Shown here: one piece after another, positions 12,257 through 38,695 of the stretch
How positions within the stretch are numbered: position 1 is the first letter of the stretch
Layout of the letters: every line of letters begins with the position of its first letter
Assembly (NCBI GenBank): GCA_937124965.1
Contig: CAKZLB010000029.1
Span: 1 to 53,759 of the forward strand
Direction of reading: 5' to 3'
From: an uncultured Bacteroidota bacterium
Lineage (GTDB): Bacteria > Bacteroidota > Bacteroidia > NS11-12g > UBA9320
DNA length: 53,759 nucleotides
Translations under genes and position numbers: made by a program
Notes under the pieces: generated by a model
What the model saw: the letters and a program-made list of their open reading frames with translations, nothing else
The model's database searches: none
Told to the model about the DNA's origin: nothing

Positions 12257-12306
12257 TTTTTATATATTTTATGATGCAAAGCAGCGTCATATTCCATAGG
12301 TAGATT

Positions 12307-12417
12307 CTTAATGTTTATTAATGCTTATTAATAAGTTTAAAGGGAGTTTTACTTAAAGCCGAGATCAATAATTAACCAGCATTAATATTCATTAATACTT
12401 TTTAATTTCTATTAAAA
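12307..12417. promoter_or_regulatory. Helically phased TTAAT repeats in a divergent promoter region
   Basis: Two clusters of ATTAAT-type heptamers recur every 10 bp: CTTAATG at 12307, ATTAATG at 12317 and ATTAATA at 12327; then CATTAAT at 12380 and 12390, followed by TTTAAT and ATTAAA at 12401 and 12411. The second cluster is the inverted form of the first (TATTAATGCT at 12316-12325 against AGCATTAATA at 12378-12387). The spacing places the motifs on one DNA face, suggesting bent DNA or a multi-site operator between the protease and the barrel operon. Which gene it controls is unknown. Confidence 0.45.
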
Positions 12418-12450
12418 TTACTGCCTCTAATACTGCTGTTCATTTGCGGT

Positions 12451-23242: not shown

Positions 23243-25132
23243 ATGAAATTCAGGATTTCTTTATTGATTTGGTTTGTCTTGATGGCACCAATTGCCTATG
23301 CTCAGTCCAACCCATTATCCGAGTTAAAAGCACAACTTTCTGAGACTAAATCATCAACAGATCGTTTACAGAAAATAGAGGAATATTGCCTCGAATATTT
23401 ATGGAATGAACCATTTCTCGCAGATACAATGGTTCAGCTTCTGGAAAAAGAAGCCGCCGAAAAACAAGATTCATTTTACATCGCGAGAGGGCATTTCTTT
23501 AGAGGAATTTTAAAATTTAACTGGAAGAAATTAGAGGATGCGTATGAAGACTTTTTAGAAGCTAGAAAGTATTTTGAAGAAATTGATAGTCAAAAACAAC
23601 TTGCCGAAGTTTACCACAACATTGGTCTAGTTCACAATGATTTTTTGGATAGTGCACAAAGTTTAAAATACCTTTTAAAAGCCAAGGAAATAAACAAGCG
23701 GCATGGATATTATGAGCAATTGATCAAAAATGAATTCATCATTATTACCTTAGAAAGTGATATTTCTAAGAAGCTCGATATGTATGTGTCTATTAGAGAT
23801 TCTAGTCTGAAATTTAATTACGATGAAGGTGTGTTGTTAGCAGATCTTAATAGCGGTGTAATTGGATATCATCTTGGATATTACGAGAAGACTTTAGGAT
23901 TTGTTGAAAATGCGGAAATGGTGATGAAACGCTCTGGAATTACTAAGTACGCTAGTGAATTATATGAAGTTAAAGCAGCGGCCTATTGGACCCAGTTAAA
24001 TTATCACAAAGCAGAAGAATATTTTAAAAAAGCGCTTGAAGGCTATCGAAAGAAAAACGCAAGAATGCGGATATCAGAAGTTTATTTAAATCTTGGAGAA
24101 ATAAACAACGAAGCAGGAGAATTAGATAGTTCGATAAGCTATTTAAAGAAATACATTGCGTTACAAGACTCGATTCTGATAACCGATAAAAGGGAGATAA
24201 TAAAGGAGGTAGAGGCTAGTTATAGATTAGAATATCAAGAGAAGGAAAATGCATTGTTACGCAAGGAAGCGAAACTTGACGATGCTAAATTGGAAACAGC
24301 GTCTCGCCAAAAAATACTTTTGATATTACTATTAGTGATTACCTTATTAACTATAGCACTTTTAACGGCACGTTACAATACAAAACAAAAGCACTATCAT
24401 GAGGTCGAGCAGATTAACAGTCAATTAAATAGCCTGAACTTAGAAATGGAAAGTATTTTACAAATGGTTTCACATGATTTTAGAACACCCTTGGCTAAGA
24501 TAAAAATGGCTGGAGAGCTTTTGGGAATACAAGAAAAAGACCTTAGCGATAAAAGTAAAAAGAAACTTGAAACTATTAATACATCCGTTGCAGAAGCCGA
24601 AGAATTAGTGTCAGACATCTTAGAAGTTAAACAGTTTATTTCAGATGAAAACCCAGTGTTGGATCCTCAAATGTTTGACGTTAATGCTGAAATTAAAGGG
24701 ATCTGTGCTCATTACGACCAACCGCTAATTTTGAAAAATATCGAGATAGACTATACCCATTCTGGAGAAACAGAGGTGTTTGCAGTTAAGGAAATGATTA
24801 AACGTATTGTCGGAAATCTGGTGTCAAATGCGGTTAAATTTTCTCCTCATGATACGAAGATTCATGTCAAAACATCGGTGGTCAATAGTCGCTTGACCTT
24901 AATTGTTATAGACAATGGGCCAGGGTTTAAAGAAGCGGATAAAATAAATGTTTTTAAAAAGTTCCCCAATATTGAAAATAGACCAGTTTCGTGGGGATCT
25001 TCTCATGGTTTGGGATTGTTTATTGTCAAAAAATTAGTGGATCAACTTGGAGGGGAGATTACTTTAAATTCGAATCCAGGAAAAGGCGCTGAGTTTGTGG
25101 TTAGTCTTCCGGTTGAAACTCAGTCAACCTAA
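23243..25132 (+). CDS. TPR-containing sensor histidine kinase
   Basis: 629 residues. Signal peptide 1-20 (APIAYAQ), so the sensor region faces the periplasm. Residues about 75-310 form tetratricopeptide-type helical repeats (AEVYHNIGLVHND, SEVYLNLGEINNEAGELD), followed by a coiled coil (about 320-356) and one membrane span (357-376). The cytoplasmic kinase core has the H box MVSHDFRTPLAKI (His411), N box NLVSNAVKFSP (Asn529), G1 IDNGPGF and G2 GLGLFIVKKLV. Family members couple an unknown periplasmic, often protein, signal to an OmpR-type regulator. The partner is the divergent regulator gene. The stop codon overlaps tail-to-tail by 4 bp with the porin gene at 25129. Confidence 0.95.
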   Translation: MKFRISLLIWFVLMAPIAYAQSNPLSELKAQLSETKSSTDRLQKIEEYCLEYLWNEPFLADTMVQLLEKEAAEKQDSFYIARGHFFRGILKFNWKKLEDAYEDFLEARKYFEEIDSQKQLAEVYHNIGLVHNDFLDSAQSLKYLLKAKEINKRHGYYEQLIKNEFIIITLESDISKKLDMYVSIRDSSLKFNYDEGVLLADLNSGVIGYHLGYYEKTLGFVENAEMVMKRSGITKYASELYEVKAAAYWTQLNYHKAEEYFKKALEGYRKKNARMRISEVYLNLGEINNEAGELDSSISYLKKYIALQDSILITDKREIIKEVEASYRLEYQEKENALLRKEAKLDDAKLETASRQKILLILLLVITLLTIALLTARYNTKQKHYHEVEQINSQLNSLNLEMESILQMVSHDFRTPLAKIKMAGELLGIQEKDLSDKSKKKLETINTSVAEAEELVSDILEVKQFISDENPVLDPQMFDVNAEIKGICAHYDQPLILKNIEIDYTHSGETEVFAVKEMIKRIVGNLVSNAVKFSPHDTKIHVKTSVVNSRLTLIVIDNGPGFKEADKINVFKKFPNIENRPVSWGSSHGLGLFIVKKLVDQLGGEITLNSNPGKGAEFVVSLPVETQST

Positions 25133-26340
25133 AATATCACCTGAACCATAAAATCTCCTCGCATAGAATTACTGCCGTTGTAATCGAACGATGATACGGC
25201 AGCGTTTAGTTTCAGGCTATTTTGTTTCACGTATTTCGTAATTCCAAATGATGTAAGTGTCGTTGTTTGAATTACAGATTTTTGATTCATATCGAACTCT
25301 GGGGAAACGACAGAATAGCGCAAATCTACACCATACCCAGATTTGGTCACATAACCTAACTGTGCGTTATATCCAGTTCCTAACGATAAAAATTCACTGA
25401 TTTGGGTTGGAACTAAATTTACAGAAGCTGTTTCATTAATATATGCTCCTTCAAGGCCTTTGGCTGTTGATACGTTGTACTCCCCCAAAAACGAAAACCC
25501 ATTCCATTTGAATAACAAATCCGAGTACAGTTGTCTGTAATCCGGTAGCTGATTTTGTCCTTTGTAATTATACAGAAAAACATCACCATGACCTTCACCC
25601 GTCTGATTGCTGGCTCCGTCATTATAACTAGCGGCTAAACCTATTACCACTTTAGGAGTTTGTTCTCGGTATAAATCAGCGATCATTTTATCATTTTTGT
25701 CGCTGAACATACCCATTGGAAATATATCAAGTCTTGCAGCATACTTGAAACCACCTAAATCTGGATCGGTCGAACTTGCTCCAAACGAATTCCTGCCATC
25801 TCCGGAGGTTATGGCTATTTGAGGAAGAAAAACCAACGAGCCTAGCTCAATTTTATTTTCAATAAAAATACCAAATTCACGACCCGAGTTGCTAAACGAA
25901 GTGCTCAACAAACTTCGATCTAAAAACTGCAGTTGATCTTCCATCAACATCATTTCTCTGTTGTTTGCGATGGTCTGTTTTTGTCCGAAAGTTACCTTAA
26001 ATGAGTTTGAGGGAGCATATGAAACCCATGCATCTAACAAAGGAGTGCCTAAACTGAAATCGGTTTGTATCAAAAACTCGAGATGTTCATTTTGAGCTTT
26101 GCCACCAATGTTGAAATACGTTCTTCGTGCATTGAAAAGATACTCAGCTTCATTGATACTGTCTTTCACTATACCGACAGTTGGTTGAATCATTCCACCA
26201 AGTTTAAAACTGTAATCACCATTATTCATGGAGAATGCTAACCCTTCCCCGAGTTCAAAACTAGAGGAATGTTGGTTGGGATTTTGCGCAAAAACAGTGA
26301 TGCTGCAAAGAAAAAGTAAGAGCGTAAGTACGTTTTTCAT
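25129..26340 (-). CDS. Outer-membrane porin of the OprO/OprP (porin O/P) type
   Basis: 403 residues, signal peptide 1-18 (SITVFAQ). The sequence opens with the family-like strand GLAFSMNNGDYSFKLGG, then FNARRTYFNIGGKAQNEHLEF and LLDAWVSYAPSNSFKVTFGQ, and ends in an aromatic residue (MVQVIF) as outer-membrane barrels do. It is clearly paralogous to the porin at 27888 (shared features: GEG(L/M)xFS, DAWV-Y-P, FGQ, RSxxxxSF, REFG). Family members pass anions such as phosphate or acidic solutes; given the adjacent peptidase and isoaspartyl dipeptidase, acidic peptides are a reasonable substrate guess. It is the last gene of the operon and starts 1 bp after the stop of the M14 gene. Confidence 0.85.
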   Translation of the reverse strand: MKNVLTLLLFLCSITVFAQNPNQHSSSFELGEGLAFSMNNGDYSFKLGGMIQPTVGIVKDSINEAEYLFNARRTYFNIGGKAQNEHLEFLIQTDFSLGTPLLDAWVSYAPSNSFKVTFGQKQTIANNREMMLMEDQLQFLDRSLLSTSFSNSGREFGIFIENKIELGSLVFLPQIAITSGDGRNSFGASSTDPDLGGFKYAARLDIFPMGMFSDKNDKMIADLYREQTPKVVIGLAASYNDGASNQTGEGHGDVFLYNYKGQNQLPDYRQLYSDLLFKWNGFSFLGEYNVSTAKGLEGAYINETASVNLVPTQISEFLSLGTGYNAQLGYVTKSGYGVDLRYSVVSPEFDMNQKSVIQTTTLTSFGITKYVKQNSLKLNAAVSSFDYNGSNSMRGDFMVQVIF

Positions 26341-26341
26341 A

Positions 26342-27883
26342 TTATAATTTCTCCGTTTTTAAATATCGATAAATAGGCAGTGTTTCTCCTAACTCACAGG
26401 ATAAAACATGAAAAGAAACAAAGCTATTTGGTGCTTCAGGTTCTAATACCTCAAACGCCAAGCTTGCATTTTTTTGATTGGTGTAAATGATAAAGCTTCC
26501 GGCGGGTATCGTTTTCGTTTCTTCATTTACGATAGTTTTTACTTTTTGACGATAAACCCCTTCGTATTTTTCCCCCTCTTTTGTGTATGATGAAACTGTG
26601 AAGGTTTCAATTGCTGCCATTTTATCTTCTTTGGTTTTTTCGAGTGTCAGACCAAGTGTTTTAAGTTTGTCGATTAAACGTGTATGCGATTGTTCGATAA
26701 TGTAAGCAGTTGGTCGCGCTCGAACCAACGTGGCGATTGAATTTGACGCATTATGAATCGTGGCATCTAACTCAATTTCGGAACATGTTTCAAGGTCAAT
26801 TACCGTGAGCTTTTCGTTATTAATATCTTTTTTACATGTTACTGTTACTTCTTGATGTGCACGTTCACCAAGTGCAAGTTCTTGTTTTAGTTTTTCGAAA
26901 TTTTGATATGATGAGTTGAGGTAAGACATGCCTATAAGAAATGTCGAATTCACACGCCTTTTAAACGAAGTTCTTCCAAGACCAACACCTCGAATTTCAA
27001 TTAAGCTTGATATACAATTGCTAAGCGCATACGATGTGGCACTGCTTCGAGCATTATTGGAACCTTGGTTGAAGTGAATATCGCCTAGTACTTTGGTTGT
27101 GGTGACATAATCACGATATGCGATACCATTGTTTTTTAGAACTTGTTCAGCATTCGTAACAAAGACATCTTTGGTAAGTTGACGCACGTTTAGTGGAACG
27201 TTTAAGTTTCCAGAATACATAAACATTGCATCATATCTGGAAGTAATGCCCATAGTACTTAGTTTCGAAAAATCCTTTCTATACGGTCGATATTCATGAA
27301 AATCAACGGCAACCTCCGCTTTGAAATTGCTAAATGCTTGCTTTAAGGAAACACTTTCTGGAGCCATTAATTTTGTTTGATCTCTATTCAAATCCAACCC
27401 GTTTGCAGCGTACCTGTCTTGTTTCAGATATCCGTCGATATTGGCCATTGGGACTATTCTAATTTCCAAACGGTCCAATAAATGACTATGACTAGAATCG
27501 TTTAACAGTCTTTCTAAAATGTACAGAACTCCTTCGGTACTAGCCATTTCATCACCGTGTAATCCGCCTTGCAACCAAACTCGAACTCTTGAAGTATCAC
27601 CGCTATTTTTTTTCAAGGTAACAAGAGGTATTGCCTTGCCTTTTTGGCTACTTCCGATATAGCTAATCGTCATAACATTGGAATGTTTGACTTGAAGCTC
27701 TGTTAGAAATTGGGTAAGCTCATCGTAGTTTGTAAACCCTTTCTTTTTTTGAAATGCAGGAGTGTTAATTTCGATATCTAACTCAGGAAAAAACTTTTTA
27801 GTAATTTTTTTAGGTTCTGGATTCAGTTGAGAAGTGAATCCCAAAAGCAGAACTGTTAATGTTAGTATCCCTAGTTTTTTCAT
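26342..27883 (-). CDS. M14-family zinc carboxypeptidase, exported
   Basis: 513 residues from the ATG at 27883; a longer frame from a TTG at 27898 would spoil the signal peptide (MKKLGILTLTVLLLGFTS). The M14 domain has zinc ligands His109 and Glu112 (GLHGDEMAS) and His196 (VDFHEYRP), substrate-binding Asn166-Arg167 (GLDLNRDQ), and the likely catalytic Glu296 (LIEIRGVG). It should remove C-terminal residues from peptides in the periplasm or at the surface. The last 180 residues form an extra domain ending LPIYRYLKTEKL without a sorting domain. It is flanked by two paralogous porins, as if peptides enter, are trimmed and handed on to the dipeptidase encoded upstream. Confidence 0.9.
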   Translation of the reverse strand: MKKLGILTLTVLLLGFTSQLNPEPKKITKKFFPELDIEINTPAFQKKKGFTNYDELTQFLTELQVKHSNVMTISYIGSSQKGKAIPLVTLKKNSGDTSRVRVWLQGGLHGDEMASTEGVLYILERLLNDSSHSHLLDRLEIRIVPMANIDGYLKQDRYAANGLDLNRDQTKLMAPESVSLKQAFSNFKAEVAVDFHEYRPYRKDFSKLSTMGITSRYDAMFMYSGNLNVPLNVRQLTKDVFVTNAEQVLKNNGIAYRDYVTTTKVLGDIHFNQGSNNARSSATSYALSNCISSLIEIRGVGLGRTSFKRRVNSTFLIGMSYLNSSYQNFEKLKQELALGERAHQEVTVTCKKDINNEKLTVIDLETCSEIELDATIHNASNSIATLVRARPTAYIIEQSHTRLIDKLKTLGLTLEKTKEDKMAAIETFTVSSYTKEGEKYEGVYRQKVKTIVNEETKTIPAGSFIIYTNQKNASLAFEVLEPEAPNSFVSFHVLSCELGETLPIYRYLKTEKL

Positions 27884-27887
27884 TCGA

Positions 27888-29189
27888 TTAAAATGCAAAT
27901 GATGTTAAGATTCTAGCGGTGAACTCATTGCCTGTTATTGGGTTTGCTTTAATGTCTGTTGCACCCGATCCAACTTCATTGTATGTAACAGATGCTTGTA
28001 CTTTGAAGCCATAGTTTCTGTTCGTATATTTTGCGATTCCTAACGTGTAATAGTTCGGACGATTATAAAACAAATTATTGTTTAGAAACGAAAATTCATC
28101 TGCTTCAATGTGGCAATATCGAGCATCAATTGAAAAGTGATTTTTAAAAATATAACCCGCTTGTATATTATATCCTTCACCCAACATCATTCTGCCTTTT
28201 ACATAGTTTTCGACGTTTTGCTCCCCGTTTACATTAAACGTTGTCGATGTTGAGCCATCGTTTCTCACGCGCGTTGTGATTTCAGTAGGAACAGTTGCAG
28301 CAGTTTTGACAAACTCGCCAAGCATTGAAAATCCGCGGTATTTGAATAAGAAGTCAATTCCAAACTTTGTAAAATCAGGCAGTGCTTCATTTTGATCATT
28401 GTCAAGATAAATAATGCTTCCACTATTTCTACCTCGCCGACTACTCATGCCGCTGTTGATGCTATAATTTGTGCCGATTACTAATTTGGGTGACAGTTCA
28501 CGAACCATATCAACTTGTCGATATTGACCATAATTTGTAAATAAGCCAAAAGGCAAGAAATCGAGCCTTCCGCCAACTTTTAAACCACCGTGGTCATTAT
28601 TAAATGCGTTTATACCGTCGCCATTTGTTACCGTTAAATAGGGTCTAAGGTAGCGGCCACCACCCACTCTGAAATTTCCTGAAGCAAATAATCCAAACTC
28701 CCGAATCGTAGAAAAGGAGGAGGTAACTCTGCTTCTTTCGACTAATTGTAAGGTTTGAGAACCCATGGTCAATTCGCGATTATCCGTTGGTGTAGAGCTT
28801 TGTCCAAATTTTATTTTTATTCGTTTTGTCGGATTATAAGCAACCCAAGCATCCATTAAAAATGTACTTAAATCGTCCCCAACTTCTGAAGCCCCGCTCA
28901 TATCTATTTGAAATCGATAATCTAGTTTATATTCAGGAACATCGCCTGTTAGACGCAAACGCAATCGTCGCACTCGGAACCGAGTGTAATTCGCATCAAA
29001 TGTGTCTGATGAACCGGCTCGGTTTTCAGCATAAAACTGTGAGTAGCCTCTGAGGTTCATGGAATACCCGTTTGCTCCAGAAAACGTCATTCCTTCTCCT
29101 GGAGTGTATTTATTTAGTTTTGGGTTTTGTGAAAATCCAAGAAACGTACTCAATAGAAGTATTACTATTAATGAGGTGTATGATTTCAT
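27888..29189 (-). CDS. Outer-membrane porin of the OprO/OprP type, second copy
   Basis: 433 residues from the ATG at 29189; the frame extends to a TTG at 29201 that would overlap the previous gene. Signal peptide 1-21 (STFLGFSQ). The opening strand GMTFSGANGYSMNLRGYSQF, an Arg-rich strand (FRVRRLRLRLTG), DAWVAYNPTKRIKIKFGQ and the terminal phenylalanine (ILTSFAF) mark a porin barrel. The Arg-rich early strand suggests an anion-preferring pore. It is paralogous to the porin at 25129 but clearly diverged, so the two probably differ in substrate. It begins 4 bp after the isoaspartyl dipeptidase gene. Confidence 0.87.
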   Translation of the reverse strand: MKSYTSLIVILLLSTFLGFSQNPKLNKYTPGEGMTFSGANGYSMNLRGYSQFYAENRAGSSDTFDANYTRFRVRRLRLRLTGDVPEYKLDYRFQIDMSGASEVGDDLSTFLMDAWVAYNPTKRIKIKFGQSSTPTDNRELTMGSQTLQLVERSRVTSSFSTIREFGLFASGNFRVGGGRYLRPYLTVTNGDGINAFNNDHGGLKVGGRLDFLPFGLFTNYGQYRQVDMVRELSPKLVIGTNYSINSGMSSRRGRNSGSIIYLDNDQNEALPDFTKFGIDFLFKYRGFSMLGEFVKTAATVPTEITTRVRNDGSTSTTFNVNGEQNVENYVKGRMMLGEGYNIQAGYIFKNHFSIDARYCHIEADEFSFLNNNLFYNRPNYYTLGIAKYTNRNYGFKVQASVTYNEVGSGATDIKANPITGNEFTARILTSFAF

Positions 29190-29193
29190 AAGA

Positions 29194-30333
29194 CTATTCA
29201 AAATTGCCTTTAATTAACGTTTCGCCATTTTTTACGACGTGTTTGCCTTTTGCAAATACATCCACTAAGTTGTTCTTGTCGTCTAATGCACAGAAATCGG
29301 CATCAGCTCCAACTTTTATAACTCCTTTATTTTTAAGACCAAGGTTGGAAGCTGGATTACTTGTAATAAGTTTGATTGCCTCTGAGATTGGGAGAAGTCC
29401 AGAATCTATCAACTGTTTGGTTTCAAACCAGTTTTGATCAAATGGAGCTCTGCGCAAGCCAATGAAGTTTCCGTTTTGATCCAACTTATCTAATCCAGCA
29501 TTGCCATCACTGCTAAACGTCATTTTGTCTATGGGTACACCTTGTTCGAGAGCATATACTACAGATTTGTGAGGTTTGGTGTATTGTGATGCTCCTGTTG
29601 TGATATCAATCATTCCACCAAGTTTGGCAAATCGAATCGCTTCGTCAAATAATTCTTTTGTACGACCAACATGTGTTGGTGAGATGTTTTCAATCGGAAA
29701 CTGATGCTCTTCAACCAATCGAAAGAGAATGTCCATTTTGCTTTTTAAGTTTCCTAAATGTAGATGTAAAATTCCTTTTTTATTGCCGATCATTCCACCC
29801 ACGCGTATATCCCTCAAGAGACGCAGTAGCTCTATGTCAGTTGGGTACGACGATCGAATATCAGTTATTGCAATTTTGCATCCCAAAACAGCATCAACAT
29901 AAATAATGTCTTCTTGTGCAGTTTGCATCAAATGCACAGGATCCAAACCATAGTAACCCGTAAACATGTATGCCGACATTCCTTCAGATTCGAGAGCTTT
30001 TACTTTCGCATACAGGCTATTAATACTTCGCGTTGAACCATCTGTTCCCAGCAAACCAACAACCGTGGTTGTTCCACAAGAAATCAGTTCTGATAAGTTT
30101 ACTTCAGGAGTCATGGATGAGAATCCTCGTTTGCCTCCAGCACCAGTTACATGAATGTGTTGATCAATAAAACCTGGAGTTAGAGATTTTCCAGATCCAT
30201 CCCAAACATTGCAGTCGACTCCATCAACGTTAATTTCTGTTCCTATCGAAAGTATTTTACCACCACCGATCAAAATGTCTTTTACACCAAGAGATTCTGG
30301 AGCATAAACGGAGGCGTTTTTAATTAGTAACAT
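29194..30333 (-). CDS. iadA: Isoaspartyl (beta-aspartyl) dipeptidase, amidohydrolase family
   Basis: 379 residues, no signal peptide, so cytoplasmic. All metal-site residues of the IadA family are visible: His59 and His61 (DQHIHVTGAGG), the carboxylated Lys153 (GCKIAITDIRSS), His192 (LHLHLGN), His221 (SPTHVGR) and Asp276 (FSSDGNAG). The enzyme splits beta-linked Asp-X dipeptides formed by isomerisation of Asp/Asn in ageing protein or released from cyanophycin. Length fits the family (about 390). Its start overlaps the DcuC-family carrier gene by 10 bp, a pairing that suggests the carrier moves the dipeptide or the aspartate product. Confidence 0.93.
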   Translation of the reverse strand: MLLIKNASVYAPESLGVKDILIGGGKILSIGTEINVDGVDCNVWDGSGKSLTPGFIDQHIHVTGAGGKRGFSSMTPEVNLSELISCGTTTVVGLLGTDGSTRSINSLYAKVKALESEGMSAYMFTGYYGLDPVHLMQTAQEDIIYVDAVLGCKIAITDIRSSYPTDIELLRLLRDIRVGGMIGNKKGILHLHLGNLKSKMDILFRLVEEHQFPIENISPTHVGRTKELFDEAIRFAKLGGMIDITTGASQYTKPHKSVVYALEQGVPIDKMTFSSDGNAGLDKLDQNGNFIGLRRAPFDQNWFETKQLIDSGLLPISEAIKLITSNPASNLGLKNKGVIKVGADADFCALDDKNNLVDVFAKGKHVVKNGETLIKGNFE

Positions 30334-31697
30334 AGAGCAAAATGATAAATTAACATGGTGGTTAGAGCAATTGCGAAGGGTATAATATTTCGTTTTACAA
30401 TATCAAGTGTTGAAACACCTGCAATTTCTGCGGTTGCAATTAGAACGCCTGCAACAGGACTAACGGTTCTTCCCATTGATGCAGACATGTTCATTGGAAG
30501 TATCATAGAAGCACTTGAAACTCCAAAAGTTTTCGCAATTTTCGGAATGAGTGGTCCAAATGCAAAAAATGCTGCATTGCCGCTGCCCATGAGCATTGAA
30601 GCCAGAAATATCACAATGGTCATGACTATTCCAATTCCCATTGCACCTAAACCAGCGCTTTGCGTAATCGAAATCAACCCTTCGATAAACCCAAGCGATA
30701 TTAAACCTTTGGCAAAAATGTCAGCAGCTATTATCAGTGTAACAACAGAACTAAAAATTGCACCCATTCCTGTCCAAAAGACCTTCATAGACTGCAAAAC
30801 TTCTTTGATGTTTCTCTTTCTGACAAACTCAAAAATCATAGCAATAAAAAAACTAATCAGCATTGCTGTTGTCGTATCGATTTTTACCTTAAACGGAATC
30901 GCGGTTATTACCCCTGAAAACAAGATTAATATAATCAGCGGTAGAATTGGGATGATAGCATAAATGCTCGGTGCTACAGCTTTATCTGAGGATTCTTTTA
31001 CCACTTCTTTTTTAGAAGCTTTTGAACGCTTATCAAAATAGCGATTCACAAAATAGTAAGAGATCATCAATACAATTGTTAACGGCCAGACAAGAGGAAT
31101 TTGATAATCAATGAAATATGGAATACTAGCAATCTGCGAAATTTCTGAGGCGGATGCGGTAATGGCTGATGCTGGTCCGATCCCGAATGCGGTACAAGCC
31201 GTTATTACAGAAACCGCGGATAGGCGGCTAACTCCAAGGCTAGTTAGTATTGGAAAAACTGACGCCATCAATAATAAGCCTAGTCCAGCGGCAGAAGGAA
31301 CGCAAACAAAGAGTAACTGACCAATGGGTAAAACAGCTATAGCTGCGAGATCAGGGTATTTTTTTAATAGTTTGAGAGGTTTTAAAGCAATTTTAACCAA
31401 CACTTCGGATGCTCCAATAGCTTCAATGTATGCCACAAAACCGCCAATTGCCATTATCATCAATCCAACCTTGGCATTGGTTTTTGCAAACGATTCTTTG
31501 ATTAACGCAAATAAATCGAAAGTGTCTGACCCAGTTGGTTTTAGTAATTCTGGAATATCACGTCCTAAAAACAGACTAATAACAAGCATTAATAATCCCG
31601 CAAACAATAAAACTGCGTGAGGATGATATTTTTTTAGTAATAGTCGACCAACTAGTACAATAAATACAAATGATATGATTAACCCAGTGTAGCTCAA
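30324..31697 (-). CDS. DcuC-family C4-dicarboxylate (or aspartyl-peptide) carrier
   Basis: 457 residues with about 12 hydrophobic segments, no signal peptide. Family-like stretches include FVCVPSAAGLGLLLMAS, ACTAFGIGPASAITASASE, LMGSGNAAFFAFGPL and MNMSASMGRTVSPVAG. DcuC proteins exchange or export C4-dicarboxylates such as succinate. Linked to isoaspartyl dipeptidase, import of aspartate or acidic dipeptides is equally plausible. The start is a TTG at 31697, since no ATG precedes it after the nearest in-frame stop and the first internal Met lies about 36 residues in. The gene follows the lamin-tail lipoprotein by 11 bp. Confidence 0.88.
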   Translation of the reverse strand: MSYTGLIISFVFIVLVGRLLLKKYHPHAVLLFAGLLMLVISLFLGRDIPELLKPTGSDTFDLFALIKESFAKTNAKVGLMIMAIGGFVAYIEAIGASEVLVKIALKPLKLLKKYPDLAAIAVLPIGQLLFVCVPSAAGLGLLLMASVFPILTSLGVSRLSAVSVITACTAFGIGPASAITASASEISQIASIPYFIDYQIPLVWPLTIVLMISYYFVNRYFDKRSKASKKEVVKESSDKAVAPSIYAIIPILPLIILILFSGVITAIPFKVKIDTTTAMLISFFIAMIFEFVRKRNIKEVLQSMKVFWTGMGAIFSSVVTLIIAADIFAKGLISLGFIEGLISITQSAGLGAMGIGIVMTIVIFLASMLMGSGNAAFFAFGPLIPKIAKTFGVSSASMILPMNMSASMGRTVSPVAGVLIATAEIAGVSTLDIVKRNIIPFAIALTTMLIYHFALCY

Positions 31698-31708: not shown

Positions 31709-32656
31709 TTAAAAAGCCGAACCATCAGTTTTAGTTCCTGGAGAGAACAACGTAGTATGATTATTTGAGTGTTGTTCAAAGTCGCCAGTTAAGTCGGGAT
31801 TTCTAGTGTAAGACTCATTTGGATTATTTGAGAGTGGTTCTATATCAAAACGCAAAATTTCTTTTCCGTCTGCATCTTGAATAATCAGTTCATCACCAGC
31901 ATTGTTTAGATTCATATCACCAGAAGTTGAGGTTTGAACTGTGGAACCTCCAAAGCTTCCTGTGGGTGTGCCTCCACCAAATACAATAATACATTTCCCA
32001 GGTTGAATAATAGTTCCATCTGGAAAAGTATGGTTGGGGGTATTGATGGTTAAATTCTCAGTATCAAAAACTTTATATCCACTTAAATCTAATGCCTGGG
32101 CAGACATATTAATTAGTTCAATAAATTCATCTTGGGCTTGTGCATACGTGCCGTCACCGTTAGCATCACCATTCAATCCACTATTTGATGGATCGTAAAG
32201 AATTTCATTTAGCAAAAGTTGAACAGTGGCTGCCACATCATCATCTTCAAGGTTGATTGAAATTGAAGTTACCTCCCCTTTAGATGCTCCGGTAATGGCT
32301 TTAATAGATACATCTATTTTTTCTAGACCTTCTTCTTCGGAATCATCTGTGGTTGTTAACGTAACACTGCCGGATAAACTACCTGCAGGTATCATAATGT
32401 TTGTTCCAACAGAATAGTCTACATCAAAAGTTGCGCCTCCAGAGTATGCAAGTTCAACCGCTACATTGTTTGCAGAAGCTACTGATAGTGTTACGGTAAT
32501 TTCCAGTGAGCCACCATCTTCTAAAACGGCCAATTTATTTGCACTGAGCGTTGCCTTGCTTAGCAAAGAGTCTGGATCCGGCTCCACATCAATTGTTTCG
32601 CATCCACTTATCAACAGTGCAACAGCAGCCATTATGTAAAAGAATTTCTTTTTCAT
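31709..32656 (-). CDS. Lipoprotein with Calx-beta and lamin-tail (LTD) domains
   Basis: 315 residues; lipobox ALLISGC gives a lipidated Cys19. Residues about 35-140 form a Calx-beta-like domain (LAVLEDGGSLEITVTLS, TTDDSEEEGLEKIDV). Residues about 147-315 are a lamin-tail domain ([42 protein letters not shown]). Its C-terminus ends inside the LTD text YTRNPD...HTTLFSPGTKTDGS, closely matching the first LTD of the protein encoded at 32722. It is presumably surface-exposed and first gene of the compact operon or second after the 34653 gene. LTD domains are found in extracellular enzymes and binding proteins; no enzyme is present here. Confidence 0.87.
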   Translation of the reverse strand: MKKKFFYIMAAVALLISGCETIDVEPDPDSLLSKATLSANKLAVLEDGGSLEITVTLSVASANNVAVELAYSGGATFDVDYSVGTNIMIPAGSLSGSVTLTTTDDSEEEGLEKIDVSIKAITGASKGEVTSISINLEDDDVAATVQLLLNEILYDPSNSGLNGDANGDGTYAQAQDEFIELINMSAQALDLSGYKVFDTENLTINTPNHTFPDGTIIQPGKCIIVFGGGTPTGSFGGSTVQTSTSGDMNLNNAGDELIIQDADGKEILRFDIEPLSNNPNESYTRNPDLTGDFEQHSNNHTTLFSPGTKTDGSAF

Positions 32657-32721
32657 TTTAAGGTATATTTAAACGGCCATTAGGTCATTTGAAACTAGAA
32701 AATATCCGCAAGTTTGTGTAC

Positions 32722-34653
32722 TTACTTTTTAATAAATCGAACTTGTGAAACACCTAAGTCTGTGTGTACTTCAATAAAATATGTACCTGAAGCAAGCATA
32801 CTAATGTCTTGAATACCATTCACCAATGTAGGAACATCTACTATATTGCCTGAAATGCTAAAAATGGTAAGCGACTTTATTGGGGCATTTGCTTTTATGT
32901 TAATTGTGTTTTCAGATGGGTTGGGGTAAACGCTAACGCCAGCTAAATTCAAGTCTGAAACATGACTAACTTGACCTGATATAGCGATAGTTGTGTTGCC
33001 CGATACACCTGACCCGTCATTTGAAGTTGCTGTCACAACCACTGAGCCATTGGTCGCAGCAGTTAAAACTCCAGAAGCATCAATTGTAGCGATGGTATTG
33101 TCATCGACAGACCATGTGACAGTTTTATCATCTGCATCAGCGGGCATTACGGTAGCAATCATTTGTAATGTTCCTGCTGGAGTTGTAATTGTAGTTGCGT
33201 CGTTCTCACCAGTCACTGTAATACTTGCAACTTCCTTACTTAAGCAAATTGGATATACGCAATCAGCGTCGAAAATTGTTGTTGTATTGTCGGTACAGTT
33301 TGGAGCAGCATACATCCATCCAGTATCTGTTTGGTATGCCCATGCATCGGTGTATTCCCATATTTCGCCTGTACCATCAGTATCTGGATCTCCAAGAGTT
33401 TCAATTACTGCATTCGCTCTAAATAATTCTATTGCATCATCACCGTTTTGTGAAATGGAACCACCAGCATCCACCAAGATAATATCAAATTCAGACCAGC
33501 ACGTTGAGAAGTAGTTAGCAATTGCTTGAGAATCTCGAACTACAATTATTTGATCTCCTGCCTCTACAGCAATATTTGGGAAAGTATATTCCTGACCATC
33601 AGTTCCACCACCGTTGTTGGCAACGCCAATACCGTAGATATTTAAATGAGGAATAGCAGAATCAGCAACAACGTGTACTGCTTTACCAGTAACACCAGCA
33701 TCTGGTGTTGTGAAATCCATTACACCTTGTAAACGAAGACCTCCAGTTGCACATGAACCACACGAGTTAAAGCACACTGTTGGCAACATAGTTGTGCCCG
33801 AAATAATTGCAAATCTATTGGTAAATTGACCTGTTGTTTTTGTACAAGATTCGCCACCTGAGAAACTTTCTTCAACGGCAAAGTTATCCATGGTAAACTT
33901 GTATTCGATTGAGTCATTGGTTAAGGGTAACGTTACATCATATACTTGATCACCGTCATCGTCGGTCATCACATTACATGTTCCGCACCATCCATTAAAA
34001 TCACCTGCTACGTAAACGGTGCCAATTGTTCCTTCATATTTCGATAAGTCTACACTAAATGAAACGTCTACAGCAAGAGTTGTATCGAAAGAAGAGCCAT
34101 CTATCTTAGTGCCTGGAGAAAATAATAAAGTTGTATTGTCTGCATGCTGCTCAAAACTTCCTGTAATATCAGGGTTTCGAGTATACGATTCGTTTGGGTT
34201 GTTGGAAAGAGCATCTGAGTCAAATGAGAGTATTGGGTTTCCAGAATCATCCTTTATAATTATGATTTCTCCCGAGTTATTTAAACTAAGTCCAGCGGTC
34301 CCAGTGTCTGCTAAAACAACTGCTCCACCGAAGGACCCTGTTGGTGTGCCACCACCAAAAACAACTAAAGCACCTTTAGGTGGAATAATTGTCGAATTTG
34401 GAAACGTATAGACCAAACTGCCACTGGTCGTGTCATCCCAAATCTCATAACCACTAATATCGAAATTACTATAACTATCGTTGAAAAATTCAATGAAAGC
34501 ATCACCTTCTTGGTCATAAGATCCATCGCCATTCGCATCTCCATCTAATCCAGAATTAGAAGGGTCATAAAGAACTTCGTTGATTAAAAGTTGCGCAAAT
34601 ATGCTTGAAGAAAAAAGAAGGATAGCTGCTCCTAAAGTGTAAAGTCTTTTCAT
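32722..34653 (-). CDS. T9SS-exported multidomain protein: two lamin-tail modules, starch-binding-like domain, Ig-like domain
   Basis: 643 residues with a signal peptide (1-20, SSSIFAQ). In order: lamin-tail domain (about 21-190, [14 protein letters not shown]), a CBM/AMPK-type E-set domain (about 195-305, [19 protein letters not shown]), a second lamin-tail-like module (about 308-455, [25 protein letters not shown]), a bacterial Ig-like group 2 domain (about 475-565, [14 protein letters not shown]), and a type A sorting domain (about 570-643, [25 protein letters not shown]). It should bind a surface or extracellular ligand, possibly a carbohydrate. Its promoter region is shared with the divergent MocR-type regulator and contains the 32-bp paired operator. 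Confidence 0.88.
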
Positions 34654-34692: not shown

Positions 34693-34754
34693 CCAAGATA
34701 AAGGTAAATAAGACTACATTTGACATACCAATTATTTCTTTTTATTAATACCAA
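34693..34754 (-). promoter_or_regulatory. Promoter and paired TTGGTAT operator for the minus-strand peptide operon
   Basis: Read on the minus strand, TTGGTAT occurs at 34754-34748 and again at 34731-34725, starts 23 bp apart, within two perfect 11-bp direct repeats of ATAATTGGTAT. A -7-like box TATCTTGG follows at 34700-34693, 31 bp from the second half-site, leaving a leader of about 35-40 nt before the ATG at 34653. On the plus strand the same repeats read ATACCA and the second copy covers the regulator's own ATG at 34757. Activation of the minus operon with autorepression of the regulator is inferred. Confidence 0.6.
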
Positions 34755-34756
34755 TT

Positions 34757-36229
34757 ATGAATCCAACGTTGGATAAAATATCTAAAGCATACTTTTCTGA
34801 AAATAGTTTCATCGCTAAAGAGGCAACGAACCTTTACACAAAGGTTTATGATTTAATAAAAGGATTGATAGTTAAAGGGAGTTTGCCAGATGGAGCAGTA
34901 CTTCCAGCTACACGATTACTGGCTAGCGAGCTGCAGGTTTCTCGAAGTACGATAGTAAGGTCGTACGAGTTTTTGAGAATTGAAGGATATATATCTAGTG
35001 AAGTTGGGTCTGGTCATAAAGTGCGACCCGTAAAAGAAGCGTTTAAACCTAAATCACAAAACACATCATACAAGTACCCCGATTTATCTGAGTTGGGCAA
35101 GTCTTTTTCAAGAAACGTAAAATTGTTAAACAGCACAGACGACAAAAGTGTAGCGTTTAGACCAGGGCTACCTCCTTTAGATGCGTTTCCAGTAAATAAA
35201 TGGAAAAACTTGTCGAACCTCTATTGGAAAAACATCAACTTATCTGGGTTGTCATATTCTCCAGCGTCAGGGATAGAACAATTGAAGCGGAACATTGCCA
35301 ACTACTTAAATCTTACCAGAAATATCCAATGCGAACCGAATCAAGTGTTTATCGTTTCGGGCTCGTTACAGTCATTATATCTTACTGGTGTCTGTCTGCT
35401 AAATAAAGGGGATGGTGTTCATGTAGAGAATCCAACATTCCCTAATGTGCAGTCTATTTACAAAGGATTATTAGCTAATGTTCAAGGAATTGACGTGGAT
35501 GAAGACGGTATTAAGGTCGCTGAAATGAAGCAAAATTCGGTTTTGCCTAAATTAATTCATGTTACTCCTTCTTGCCATTACCCAAGCGGGTCGCTGATGA
35601 GCATAGAGCGGCGAAAAGAGCTATTGTCATTTGCTCAATCAAGTGGAGCACTGATTGTCGAAAACGACTATGAACATGAAATTACAAATTCTAGAGTTTC
35701 GCTGCCATCACTATTTGAATTGGATGAACAAGAACGAACAGTTTATCTTGGTACGTTCAATCGTTTACTTCATCCTTCTCTGCGAATAGGGTACATGGTC
35801 GTTCCTCATTTTTTAATCGAACCGTTAGAAATGTTGTTAAAACACTCGCATCGGTTTGTTCCACCAGCTACTCAGCTTGTTTTGAATCAGTTTATTGAAA
35901 AAAAATATTTGTACCAGCATATTAATCAAGTGGTGTCACTCAGTAATTCAAGAAGGGCAATTTTTAAAGAGACATTCGAGGAACTTTTTCAAGATACCGG
36001 GTTCGCAATATCAGATAGAAATCAGAATAGTTTACAGCTATTAATTTCGCTAAAAAATGGGAATGATCGAGAGTATGTCGATCGATTTGCAGAACACAAT
36101 TTGATTACACATTCCTATTCGAAATGCTTTTTAAATAAAAAGAAAGAGCAAGGATTAATTGTAGGATACAGTCCAATGCGTATTCCTGTATTAAAGTCAA
36201 ATTTACGACGAATGAGACAACTAGTATGA
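34757..36229 (+). CDS. MocR-type transcriptional regulator (GntR winged helix fused to aminotransferase-like domain), PLP lysine replaced
   Basis: 490 residues. The N-terminal GntR helix-turn-helix (about 15-90) includes LPDGAVLPATRLLASELQVS and VRSYEFLRIEGYI. A linker leads to a fold-type I aminotransferase-like domain (about 125-490): FRPGLPPLDAFP, YSPASGIEQLKRNIANYL, VSGSLQSLYL, THVTPSCHYPSG (IHVTPSCHYPSG in the protein), and ENDYEHE with the Asp that would face the PLP ring nitrogen. At the Schiff-base motif, where the family has GTFSKxLxPSLR, this protein has GTFNRLLHPSLR: Arg336 takes the place of the anchoring Lys. PLP could at most bind non-covalently. The gene is divergent from the peptide operon and followed by a hydrolase-carrier pair, both preceded by matching operators. 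Confidence 0.92.
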   Translation: MNPTLDKISKAYFSENSFIAKEATNLYTKVYDLIKGLIVKGSLPDGAVLPATRLLASELQVSRSTIVRSYEFLRIEGYISSEVGSGHKVRPVKEAFKPKSQNTSYKYPDLSELGKSFSRNVKLLNSTDDKSVAFRPGLPPLDAFPVNKWKNLSNLYWKNINLSGLSYSPASGIEQLKRNIANYLNLTRNIQCEPNQVFIVSGSLQSLYLTGVCLLNKGDGVHVENPTFPNVQSIYKGLLANVQGIDVDEDGIKVAEMKQNSVLPKLIHVTPSCHYPSGSLMSIERRKELLSFAQSSGALIVENDYEHEITNSRVSLPSLFELDEQERTVYLGTFNRLLHPSLRIGYMVVPHFLIEPLEMLLKHSHRFVPPATQLVLNQFIEKKYLYQHINQVVSLSNSRRAIFKETFEELFQDTGFAISDRNQNSLQLLISLKNGNDREYVDRFAEHNLITHSYSKCFLNKKKEQGLIVGYSPMRIPVLKSNLRRMRQLV

Positions 36230-36243
36230 TTGTATCCTAAATA

Positions 36244-36275
36244 TTGGTCTGAATAAAATACTAATTTTGGTATGT
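36244..36275 (+). promoter_or_regulatory. Paired TTGGT operator upstream of the hydrolase-carrier genes
   Basis: TTGGTCT at 36244 and TTGGTAT at 36267 start 23 bp apart, exactly as in the 34723-34754 element. Aligned over 32 bp with that element, I count 23 identities, including both TTGGT cores, the central AATAAAA and the final TTGGTATGT. ATACCA (the reverse complement) is the half-site I recall for the MocR protein GabR of Bacillus. The element ends at the -33-like TTTG, a normal place for an activator. Confidence 0.6.
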
Positions 36276-36304
36276 TTGTTCACCTTGATTTGCGAATATC
36301 TTTA
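36275..36304 (+). promoter_or_regulatory. Bacteroidota-type promoter of the hydrolase gene
   Basis: TTTG at 36275-36278 and TATCTTTA at 36297-36304 are 18 bp apart, close to the Bacteroidota -33/-7 consensus (TTTG, TAnnTTTG). The ATG at 36309 lies only 4 bp past the -7 box, so the transcript would be leaderless or nearly so if this start is used. Confidence 0.45.
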
Positions 36305-36308
36305 CCCA

Positions 36309-37241
36309 ATGAATAGTTTAAAATATCCTTTAATGTTATTCGCACTCATAGGAGTTTTATCCTCTTGCGACAACAATGTTGATGTGAAACCACGTGTTGT
36401 TATTGAAGAGTTGGATACTGTAGCCTTGTCTGGGACAGGTAGTTTTAGATACACAGATTACGCCCCATTATCGTCTAAACCTGTTCAAGTGTACTATCAT
36501 ATTCCATCCAATGCTAGTGCCACAACGCCAATATTAATGGTTTACCATGGAGCTGGTCGTGACGCGGAACCAAGCAGAAACTTATTAATCGACGAAGCAA
36601 ATGCATTTGGGTTTATTGTCTTGGTGCCAGAGTTCTCAACTGAAGATTACCCTGGAGGTGATGTGTTTAACTTAGGAAATATTTTTGAAGATGGCGATAA
36701 TCCTTCACCCACTACACTAAATGACGAATCGATTTGGACATTCTCAATTGTCGACCCTCTTTTTGACTATTTTACAGCAAAAATAAAAAGTTCAGAGAGC
36801 CGATATGATGTGTTTGGGTTTTCGGCTGGAGGACAGTTTGCACATAGACATGTTATTTTTAAACCTCAAGGGCGATACAACAGGGTGGTAGCTGCATCAA
36901 GCGGTTGGTATACGACTTTAAATGATTCAGTGGATTTTCCGTATGGATTAAGACAAAGTCCAGAAGACGGAACCAATTTGACAACATTATTGGCAAAACC
37001 TATAACCATTATGGTGGGCGATTTGGACAATGATCCAGATGCTGGAGGACTGCGTCACAACAACATAGTAGATGAACAAGGGTTTGATAGGCTTGCAAGA
37101 GCGAAGTATTTTTACAATGAAGCAGAAAAAAAGGCAACTGATATGGGTGTTCCTTTTAAGTGGAATCTACAACAACTTTCTAACGTAAATCATGATTACG
37201 AGGCGACCTCTTCTGCAGCGGCAGTATTACTTTACAAATAG
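36309..37241 (+). CDS. Alpha/beta-hydrolase lipoprotein (esterase/depolymerase-like)
   Basis: 310 residues from the ATG at 36309, chosen because it gives a lipoprotein signal (LIGVLSSC, Cys20); the frame is open further upstream. The hydrolase domain shows an HGAG oxyanion-type loop (MVYHGAGRDAEPS), nucleophile elbow GFSAGGQ (Ser172) and a late His in NVNHDYEA. The architecture resembles PHB-depolymerase/feruloyl-esterase-like secreted hydrolases, but the substrate cannot be read. Being the first gene after the paired operator, and 2 bp before the dicarboxylate carrier, it may release an acid that the carrier imports. Confidence 0.82.
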   Translation: MNSLKYPLMLFALIGVLSSCDNNVDVKPRVVIEELDTVALSGTGSFRYTDYAPLSSKPVQVYYHIPSNASATTPILMVYHGAGRDAEPSRNLLIDEANAFGFIVLVPEFSTEDYPGGDVFNLGNIFEDGDNPSPTTLNDESIWTFSIVDPLFDYFTAKIKSSESRYDVFGFSAGGQFAHRHVIFKPQGRYNRVVAASSGWYTTLNDSVDFPYGLRQSPEDGTNLTTLLAKPITIMVGDLDNDPDAGGLRHNNIVDEQGFDRLARAKYFYNEAEKKATDMGVPFKWNLQQLSNVNHDYEATSSAAAVLLYK

Positions 37242-37243
37242 AA

Positions 37244-38695
37244 ATGAGCATACCTAAAAAACTATTTGGTCGAATTTTCGGACCGTTGGCATTTTTGCTA
37301 ATCTATTCTTTTTTCTCCCCTGAAGGCTTGAGTAAAGAAGGAGTTTCTGTGTTGGCTGTTACCGCCTGGGTCGCTATCTGGTGGATTTCAGAAGCAATTC
37401 CTGTTGAGGCAAATTCCCTTTTGCCCATCATATTGTTTCCCTTAACTGGTGCTCTCGATCTTACAAAGACATGTGCCGCTTATGGACACAAGTTCATTTT
37501 TCTGTTTGTAGGTGGTTTCATTCTAGCAATAGCCATTGAGAAGTGGAATCTGCATAAGCGTATTTCACTCTCAATCATCAAAGTAGTTGGAACTAACTTA
37601 TCAAACATTATTCTCGGCTTTATGATCAGCACCGCTTTTTTGTCGATGTGGATTTCAAATACTGCAACGACCGTTATGATGTTGCCTATCGGTATAGCGA
37701 TAGTTGCTCAAATTGAAGTTGGGAAAAAGCCTGGTTCAAAACAATTTGGTAAAGCATTGATGTTAGCGATAGCATATGCTGCGTCGATTGGGGGAATTGC
37801 AACCTTAATAGGCACGCCTCCAAACATTATTTTAGCAGGGGTTATAGAACAAACCTACAATGTCGAACTCAGTTTTATGAAATGGTTTTCTATTGGATTG
37901 CCAATTTCTATGGTGCTATTATTTCTATGTTGGAAATACTTAACGAAAATCGCTTTTGACTTCAAAGAGTTGACATTAGATGGGGGAAAAGCGCTGATAG
38001 TAAAGCAATTGAAAGATTTAGGAAAAATGAGTTCTGAAGAAAAGAAGGTTTTAGTTGTGTTTCTATTAACCGCACTAGCTTGGATTTTTAGGTCTATTTT
38101 TTTAAATAAATTATTGCCAAATATTGATGATACGATTATAGCAGTAACCGCGGCCTTGGTATTGTTCGTTTTACCATCTTCAAATAAAAATGAGCCTTTG
38201 TTGAAGTGGAAAGATGCGGTAAAACTGCCTTGGGGTATTTTGTTATTGTTTGGAGGAGGAATTGCTATTGCGGTTGGATTTCAAAGTAGTGGGTTAGCAG
38301 AATGGGTTGCTCTCCAACTGCAAGGACTAAATGGTGTCCATCTATTTATAGTCTTATTTGTATTGATTGCAAGCGTCAACTTTTTAACGGAAATAACTTC
38401 TAATTTAGCAACAGCTTCGGTGCTATTGCCACTTCTAGCGCCGCTTGCACTAGCAATGGATGTGCACCCATATGTTTTAATGGTTGGCTGCACACTTGCT
38501 GCGTCATGTGCGTTCATGCTTCCAGTTGCTACGCCACCAAATGCCATAGTTTTTGGTTCAGGGAAGTTGCAAATTTCGGATATGGTGCGAGCTGGAATTT
38601 GGATGAATATAATTTCTATTGTCATCTTAACACTTGCGGTATATGGGTTGCTACCTATGTTGTGGGAAATTGATATAAGTTCTTTTCCGAAGTAA
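37244..38695 (+). CDS. SLC13/DASS-family dicarboxylate:sodium symporter
   Basis: 483 residues with about 11-12 membrane segments. The two family-defining SNT/TP motifs are clear: MWISNTATTVMMLPIG and GGIATLIGTPPNIILAG in the first half, then FLTEITSNLATASVLLPLLAPL and LPVATPPNAIVFGSG in the second. Members take up succinate, malate, fumarate, citrate or aspartate with Na+. The ATG at 37244 is 2 bp after the hydrolase stop, so the two are co-transcribed. Together with the DcuC-type carrier on the other arm, the locus encodes two unrelated acidic-metabolite carriers around one regulator. Confidence 0.93.
   Translation: MSIPKKLFGRIFGPLAFLLIYSFFSPEGLSKEGVSVLAVTAWVAIWWISEAIPVEANSLLPIILFPLTGALDLTKTCAAYGHKFIFLFVGGFILAIAIEKWNLHKRISLSIIKVVGTNLSNIILGFMISTAFLSMWISNTATTVMMLPIGIAIVAQIEVGKKPGSKQFGKALMLAIAYAASIGGIATLIGTPPNIILAGVIEQTYNVELSFMKWFSIGLPISMVLLFLCWKYLTKIAFDFKELTLDGGKALIVKQLKDLGKMSSEEKKVLVVFLLTALAWIFRSIFLNKLLPNIDDTIIAVTAALVLFVLPSSNKNEPLLKWKDAVKLPWGILLLFGGGIAIAVGFQSSGLAEWVALQLQGLNGVHLFIVLFVLIASVNFLTEITSNLATASVLLPLLAPLALAMDVHPYVLMVGCTLAASCAFMLPVATPPNAIVFGSGKLQISDMVRAGIWMNIISIVILTLAVYGLLPMLWEIDISSFPK

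Follow-up and report, generated by a model that had tools for sequence, protein, structure and literature searches.

Two 32-bp elements that flank a gene for a MocR-family regulator in an uncultured Bacteroidota bacterium are most probably (roughly 80%, judged from the sequence) operators of that regulator, which would repress its own gene and activate two putative beta-aspartyl-scavenging arms. The operator motif, its spacing, its conservation together with the regulator and the target genes, the positions of the promoter boxes, the gene families, and the residue losses in the regulator were all obtained directly. The features of the locus are listed below; the window denotes the whole stretch of DNA analyzed, 53,759 nucleotides in length.

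25129–26340, minus strand: Por2, Porin_O_P-like protein (below the Pfam cut-off)
26342–27898, minus strand: M14-type zinc carboxypeptidase (family search)
27888–29201, minus strand: Por1, porin-like protein (inferred label; no Pfam match above the cut-off)
29194–30333, minus strand: isoaspartyl dipeptidase (TIGR01975, 379.5 bits against a cut-off of 331.25)
30324–31697, minus strand: DcuC-family C4-dicarboxylate carrier (family search)
31709–32656, minus strand: LTD2, lamin-tail-domain protein (family search)
32722–34653, minus strand: LTD1, carrying a lamin-tail domain, Big_2, and a T9SS sorting tail; heads the operon (family search)
34694–34701, minus strand: predicted -7-like box TTATCTTG of the LTD/isoaspartyl operon (consensus position)
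34715–34722, plus strand: predicted mocR -7 box TACATTTG (match to the box pattern TAnnTTTG), with a predicted start near 34727
34725–34754, minus strand: operator A, TTGGTAT-N16-TTGGTAT, with half-sites at 34748–34754 and 34725–34731 (sequence, conservation)
34757–36229, plus strand: MocR regulator, GntR wHTH plus aminotransferase fold (Pfam GntR and Aminotran_1_2 above cut-off)
36244–36273, plus strand: operator B, TTGGTCT-N16-TTGGTAT, with half-sites at 36244–36250 and 36267–36273 (sequence, conservation)
36297–36304, plus strand: predicted -7-like box TATCTTTA of the PahZ1-like gene (consensus position), with a predicted start near the ATG at 36309
36309–37241, plus strand: PahZ1-like poly(aspartic acid) hydrolase with a GFSAGGQF elbow (structure-sequence matches; lipoprotein signal by eye)
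37244–38695, plus strand: DASS-family sodium-coupled anion carrier (family search)

Operator A is located 5' of the LTD/isoaspartyl operon, and operator B 5' of the PahZ1-like gene and the DASS carrier gene. Recounting on the window sequence bore out the likeness of the two 32-bp elements as given in the preliminary description: they are identical at 23 of 32 positions, their half-sites start 23 bp apart in both cases, and TATCTT begins 30 bp (plus arm) or 31 bp (minus arm) past the start of half-site 2. The same description had placed the mocR ATG inside an element, which proved incorrect, since the ATG at 34757 lies 2 bp outside. Among relatives, the nearest in-frame ATG lies 1–4 bp outside many of the divergent sites, and at the remaining sites it is found within the spacer, at a greater distance, or not at all.

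A search of the whole genome (4,090,811 bp) with TTGGTNT-N16-TTGGTAT, suggested beforehand as a check, returned exactly two matches, both of which were the window operators, against an order-0 expectation of 0.31 per genome; the reversed pattern returned none in the same genome. When up to two mismatches were allowed, 144 matches were obtained in this genome vs 159 for the reversed control, and with no excess over the control a wider regulon in this genome was therefore not visible and was rejected. Two sites in one genome are thin evidence, and it was the relatives that gave the decisive test.

For this purpose, 71 MocR loci were assembled, consisting of the window and 70 loci retrieved by a scan with an alignment of four of five query proteins (one from G026 was left out); four further loci (L008–L011) residing on the same contigs as L080, L031, L068, and L069 were excluded from the counts. 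The set spans Flavobacteriales, Bacteroidales, Chitinophaga, Cytophagaceae, Sphingobacteriaceae, and others. Conservation of the half-sites and of their step, on which the earlier proposal had been made to depend, was clearly seen: same-strand pairs of YTGGTNT and YTGGTAT at a step of 23 numbered 67 in 51 of the 71 loci, whereas no other step between 8 and 79 exceeded 4 pairs and, for the reversed motif, no step between 8 and 59 exceeded 2. After the 69 full-length MocRs were collapsed at 60% identity into 33 loci, the step of 23 was still represented by 30 pairs in 23 loci, with at most 2 pairs at the other steps from 8 to 59. Inverted-repeat operators were rejected, as no peak emerged for convergent (at most 2) or divergent (at most 4) pairs per distance between 8 and 59. 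In L011, an excluded locus from the contig of L069, one arm shows a step of 22 bp.

The sites were further evaluated with a leave-one-locus-out matrix, the training of which omits the tested locus and keeps its close relatives. Upstream regions scored above the 99% null for mocR in 65 of 69 cases (61 above the highest of 1650 null scores) and for the hydrolase gene in 38 of 48 (36 above the highest null score), where a site shared by a divergent hydrolase/mocR pair was counted in both tallies; 4 of the 69 mocR and 10 of the 48 hydrolase upstream regions were without a site above the null in this analysis. In some of these site-less loci the hydrolase gene sits behind mocR, and its own promoter may be missing. 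For 56 of the 67 strict sites, the 700 bp downstream contain a same-strand match to LTD1, LTD2, DcuC, or the hydrolase; the site at 19944 in L054 has no such target-gene match within that distance and may be a chance occurrence. The operators also travel with the target genes in rearranged loci. In L012, an 811-residue FG-GAP/T9SS gene (11483–13918) intervenes between mocR and the hydrolase gene, and the operator adjoins the latter; in L041, L044, and L050, the hydrolase gene is divergent from mocR and has an operator; and the two LTD-like genes of L044 have one operator each.

The consensus of the 67 sites reads AAYTGGTAT, 14 mostly AT-rich bases, and AAYTGGTATG. Taking the first base of half-site 1 as position 0, T occurs at 57, 58, and 59 in 61, 65, and 57 of the 67 sites and at 53 and 54 in 48 and 47, and G occurs at 60 in 40, giving TTnnTTTG, which is a weak version of TAnnTTTG, the box for which positions -12 to -5 are reported in Flavobacterium psychrophilum (PMC9723704). 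A T-rich -7-like box thus keeps a near-fixed distance on the target side of the operators. The full box is weak, T[AT]nnTTT starting at 53 in 21 of the 44 mocR-divergent sites and being scattered over 52, 53, and 54 (4, 11, and 5 sites) in the 23 others. If the target box corresponds to -12 to -5, the half-sites would be positioned at about -65 to -59 and -42 to -36, and in the -33 element region of the target promoters no conserved TTG was found among the 67 sites. Towards mocR, [CT]AAANNTA at position 32 (equivalent to TAnnTTT[AG] on the mocR strand) is present in 28 of the 44 divergent sites vs 1 of the 23 others (p 1.4e-6), a comparison that becomes weaker after the 60% collapse (9 of 17 vs 1 of 13). 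The mocR -7 box therefore abuts half-site 2 mainly at sites divergent from mocR, and in the window the predicted mocR start near 34727 falls within half-site 2 of operator A. On the other arm (36297–36309), transcription of the PahZ1-like gene is predicted to begin at its ATG, so that the mRNA may be leaderless. The searches with the hydrolase took 36312 as its first base, dropping only the start codon from the ATG at 36309.

These promoter layouts bear on the alternative that survives best, in which MocR binds the same operators as a plain repressor of both arms, released by an inducer, and the spacing to the -7 box reflects merely the compactness of the promoters. The position of operator A over the predicted mocR start, as well as the precedent of EnuR, a MocR relative that represses ectoine genes (PMC8739950), would suit such a repressor. 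On the target arms, in contrast, the entire operator precedes the -7-like box by a near-constant distance, and the -33 element is missing; an operator so placed is poor for blocking a promoter and good for activating it, and we thus regard plain repression as unlikely. Activation of the targets together with autorepression of mocR, as the preliminary description had predicted, fits this promoter geometry.

The occurrence of the regulator and the motif was compared in a survey of 395 genomes of the class, which used no peptide patterns and the organisms of which are partly the same as those of the 71-locus set; the best three MocR candidates at most were scored per genome, and orthologs may be missed. 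A MocR ortholog was found in at least 9 of the 395 genomes, indicating that the system is patchy. The strict motif WAYTGGTAT-N14-WAYTGGTAT was present in 8 of the 9 genomes with an ortholog vs 5 of the 386 in which none was found among the best three candidates at most (Fisher p 8e-13); two genomes having a distant MocR match (E about 1e-42) were counted among the latter, and both lack the strict motif. In total, the 395 genomes contained 14 strict sites in 13 genomes, and the 9 sites of the reversed control were spread over 3 genomes, one of which accounted for 7. Among near relatives, 5 of 97, this genome included, possess the ortholog; it was absent from all four other members of the genus, although more distant genomes have it. 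This patchy occurrence points to inheritance by loss or transfer; a viral origin was rejected, no relative having been matched among viral contigs. In L123, a locus of a relative, the contig with mocR bears a second strict operator at G192:C18:15421-15452, roughly 11 kb away from the regulator gene.

That the motif belongs to a different regulator, with MocR tied to it by genetic linkage only, is very improbable in light of these results. L066 and L073 do contain MocR loci without the motif. The strict motif nevertheless follows the ortholog in the survey (8 of 9 genomes vs 5 of 386, with at most the best three candidates scored), and direct repeats, as well as boxes containing TGG groups, are reported for other MocRs (PMC5320631; PMC4494728). 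Both L066 and L073 have kept an ortholog of the same MocR branch and lack the operon along with the 23-bp motif; a neighboring gene there is AraC-like by eye, and the function has possibly changed. A chance or low-complexity likeness in AT-rich intergenic DNA was rejected as scarcely credible, for although the spacers are AT-rich and two sites alone are weak against an expectation of 0.31 per genome, the uniqueness of the pair in the genome, the step-23 peak over the loci and its persistence after the 60% collapse, the matrix scores, and the contrast among the 395 genomes all argue against it.

In general, MocR proteins are regarded as PLP sensors. The structure model of the MocR encoded here (pLDDT 87.6) exhibits the fold of GabR and PdxR with full-length matches, the best Foldseek match being 4n0b, and shares the fold and domain order of GabR from Bacillus subtilis. 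Residues were mapped through a phmmer alignment with GabR, the residue roles of which, including the holding of the PLP phosphate by Arg319, were taken from PMC6917764, and were counted over the 69 full-length orthologs, omitting the partial L074 and L079. The position of Lys312, which forms the Schiff base with PLP in GabR, is occupied by Arg336 in the window protein and by Arg in 69 of 69 orthologs as well as the two partial ones. Similarly, Asp279, which contacts the PLP pyridine nitrogen, corresponds to Asn303, Arg207 to Asn230, and His114 to Pro136, each replacement being found in all 69 full-length orthologs. Arg319 is kept in 69 of 69 and Tyr281 in 66, with Phe in the other 3.

As for the dependence of these counts on the scan, one of its patterns includes Asn303 and the other Phe228 and Asn230; neither includes Arg336. 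Asn is still present at position 303 in the 19 of 71 loci without the Asn303 pattern. Among 11 orthologs found without patterns, which overlap the 71, Asn-Arg occupies positions 335–336 in 11 of 11, and Asn-Asp was read at 303–304 in 10 of 11, L104 being missed by the search expression. The outgroup L108 has Ser-Lys and Asp-Asp at the respective positions, i.e., the lysine is kept. Since the PLP lysine is replaced throughout, we call this group a lysine-less MocR-fold branch and do not claim PLP dependence for it. The protein passed the PdxR equivalog NF052282 (335 bits, cut-off 320), but was not filed as a functional PdxR because it lacks the PLP lysine and no vitamin B6 genes adjoin it in the window. 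The GabR model was not reached (218.8 bits, cut-off 600), and Arg207 and His114, the ligands for the GABA carboxylate, are replaced. The direct-repeat operator near target and regulator genes, a trait of the MocR family, is present at the sequence level.

Lys312 and Asp279 are reported as conserved across all three clusters of 1331 domains, a statement about the clusters and not about every sequence (PMC6677901), and replacement of this lysine in EnuR resulted in a constitutive repressor (PMC8739950). The fixed loss of both residues in the present clade therefore suggests that it may sense its ligand without a PLP-lysine aldimine; PLP may also be bound non-covalently. A literature search, limited on subscription papers and supplements, returned no title or abstract beginning on MocRs devoid of the PLP lysine.

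Regarding the target genes, the protein termed simply a hydrolase in the preliminary description was identified as a relative of PahZ1, poly(aspartic acid) hydrolase-1, matching two solved structures of that name, 6ve6 (E 1.2e-54) and 9o7u (E 9.5e-47), over most of its length; 100 of 259 residues aligned with 6ve6 are identical (38.6%). We take 6ve6 and 9o7u to be the enzymes of Sphingomonas KT-1 and Pedobacter KP-2. This putative enzyme has in common with the PahZ1 hydrolases homology over the catalytic domain and the serine elbow, and the elbow G-x-S-[AG]-G-x-[QE] is found in 39 of 48 hydrolase copies. DcuC carriers transport C4-dicarboxylates, and DASS carriers transport dicarboxylates and other anions. 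PahZ1 from Pedobacter KP-2 cleaves the beta-amide but not the alpha-amide bonds of tri-aspartate (PMC4456602). The combination of a PahZ1-like hydrolase, an isoaspartyl dipeptidase, and dicarboxylate carriers suggests a regulon for beta-aspartyl scavenging, which would handle beta-aspartyl polymers or isoaspartyl peptides, a substrate deduced from the gene families.

Over the 71 loci, many of which end at contig edges, gene matches were found for DcuC in 58, isoaspartyl dipeptidase in 56, M14 in 52, the first porin-like protein in 50, LTD2 in 50, the hydrolase in 48, the second porin-like protein in 47, LTD1 in 38, and DASS in 30. The LTD pair (31709–34653 in the window) heads the operon here and in many relatives. 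In the Bacteroidales-labelled L017 (1–5778), SusC/SusD-like genes and a gene for an SDF-family dicarboxylate symporter lie by the peptidase and isoaspartyl genes, and in L049 (14344–17319) a SusC-like gene lies by isoaspartyl genes. As in the cyanophycin utilization locus, the isoaspartyl dipeptidase gene is clustered with a transporter gene (PMC10206079); unlike that locus, the present one contains a PahZ1-like enzyme and dicarboxylate carriers. It was rejected as a cyanophycin locus, as the best cyanophycinase score in this genome was only 22.3 bits (cut-off 126.6), on another contig.

On the basis of the conserved motif and its association with the regulator gene, we infer that MocR binds both operators. 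In the proposed mechanism, a MocR dimer would bind two directly repeated AAYTGGTAT half-sites 23 bp apart, which would place it just 5' of the would-be -33 element of each target promoter, a position suited to an activator. Because the TAnnTTTG box of mocR abuts half-site 2, its start would lie inside the operator, and bound MocR would block it. Activation of the first arm would supply the LTD proteins, DcuC, isoaspartyl dipeptidase, the porin-like proteins, and the M14 peptidase, and that of the second the PahZ1-like hydrolase and the DASS carrier, by which beta-aspartyl polymers or isoaspartyl peptides would be cut and the aspartate or C4-dicarboxylates taken up.

This arrangement resembles that of GabR, which is likewise both autorepressor and activator (PMC6917764), and the operator region of which overlaps the divergent gabR/gabTD promoters (PMC9452892) as operator A is predicted to do here. 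The likeness of the half-sites to the GabR repeats, pointed out in the preliminary description, was borne out: TTGGTAT is the reverse complement of ATACCAA, and the ATACCA direct repeats reported for GabR (PMC4494728) are the complement of the TGGTAT half-sites. The two systems differ in that sensing by GabR proceeds through a PLP-GABA aldimine and involves Lys312 and Asp279, where the present MocR has Arg336 and Asn303; in that the GabR region is described as spanning 41 bp, its direct repeats being separated by an inverted repeat (PMC9452892), compared with a half-site step of 23 here; and in their target genes. Direct-repeat MocR operators are already known: 70 MocR regulogs with paired boxes in direct orientation have been described, most of the boxes containing TGT or TGG and their distances corresponding to helical turns (Suvorova and Rodionov, 2016; PMC5320631). 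That study included 8 Bacteroidetes regulogs, with which the present regulon may overlap. The enzymes of the regulon are also known as such. Neither this regulon nor a MocR clade lacking the lysine and the aspartate appeared in our literature search, which also covered PahZ1 regulation and was limited on subscription papers and supplements.

We further propose, tentatively and at slightly less than even odds, that this MocR clade, spread over several Bacteroidota orders, has lost PLP chemistry and uses its defunct aminotransferase pocket as a direct aspartyl or beta-aspartyl sensor controlling a 23-bp-step regulon for scavenging isoaspartyl peptides or naturally occurring aspartate polymers with beta linkages. 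A clade lacking the PLP lysine and aspartate throughout allows a direct test of PLP-free sensing by the MocR fold, and the operator code, AAYTGGTAT with a step of 23, provides a handle for finding more members. To our knowledge, the PahZ1 hydrolases have so far been studied on a man-made polymer and synthetic peptides. The regulon gives these enzymes a genomic context and a candidate natural role, and, if the proposal is true, the scavenging of natural beta-aspartyl compounds would be a natural role for PahZ1 hydrolases.
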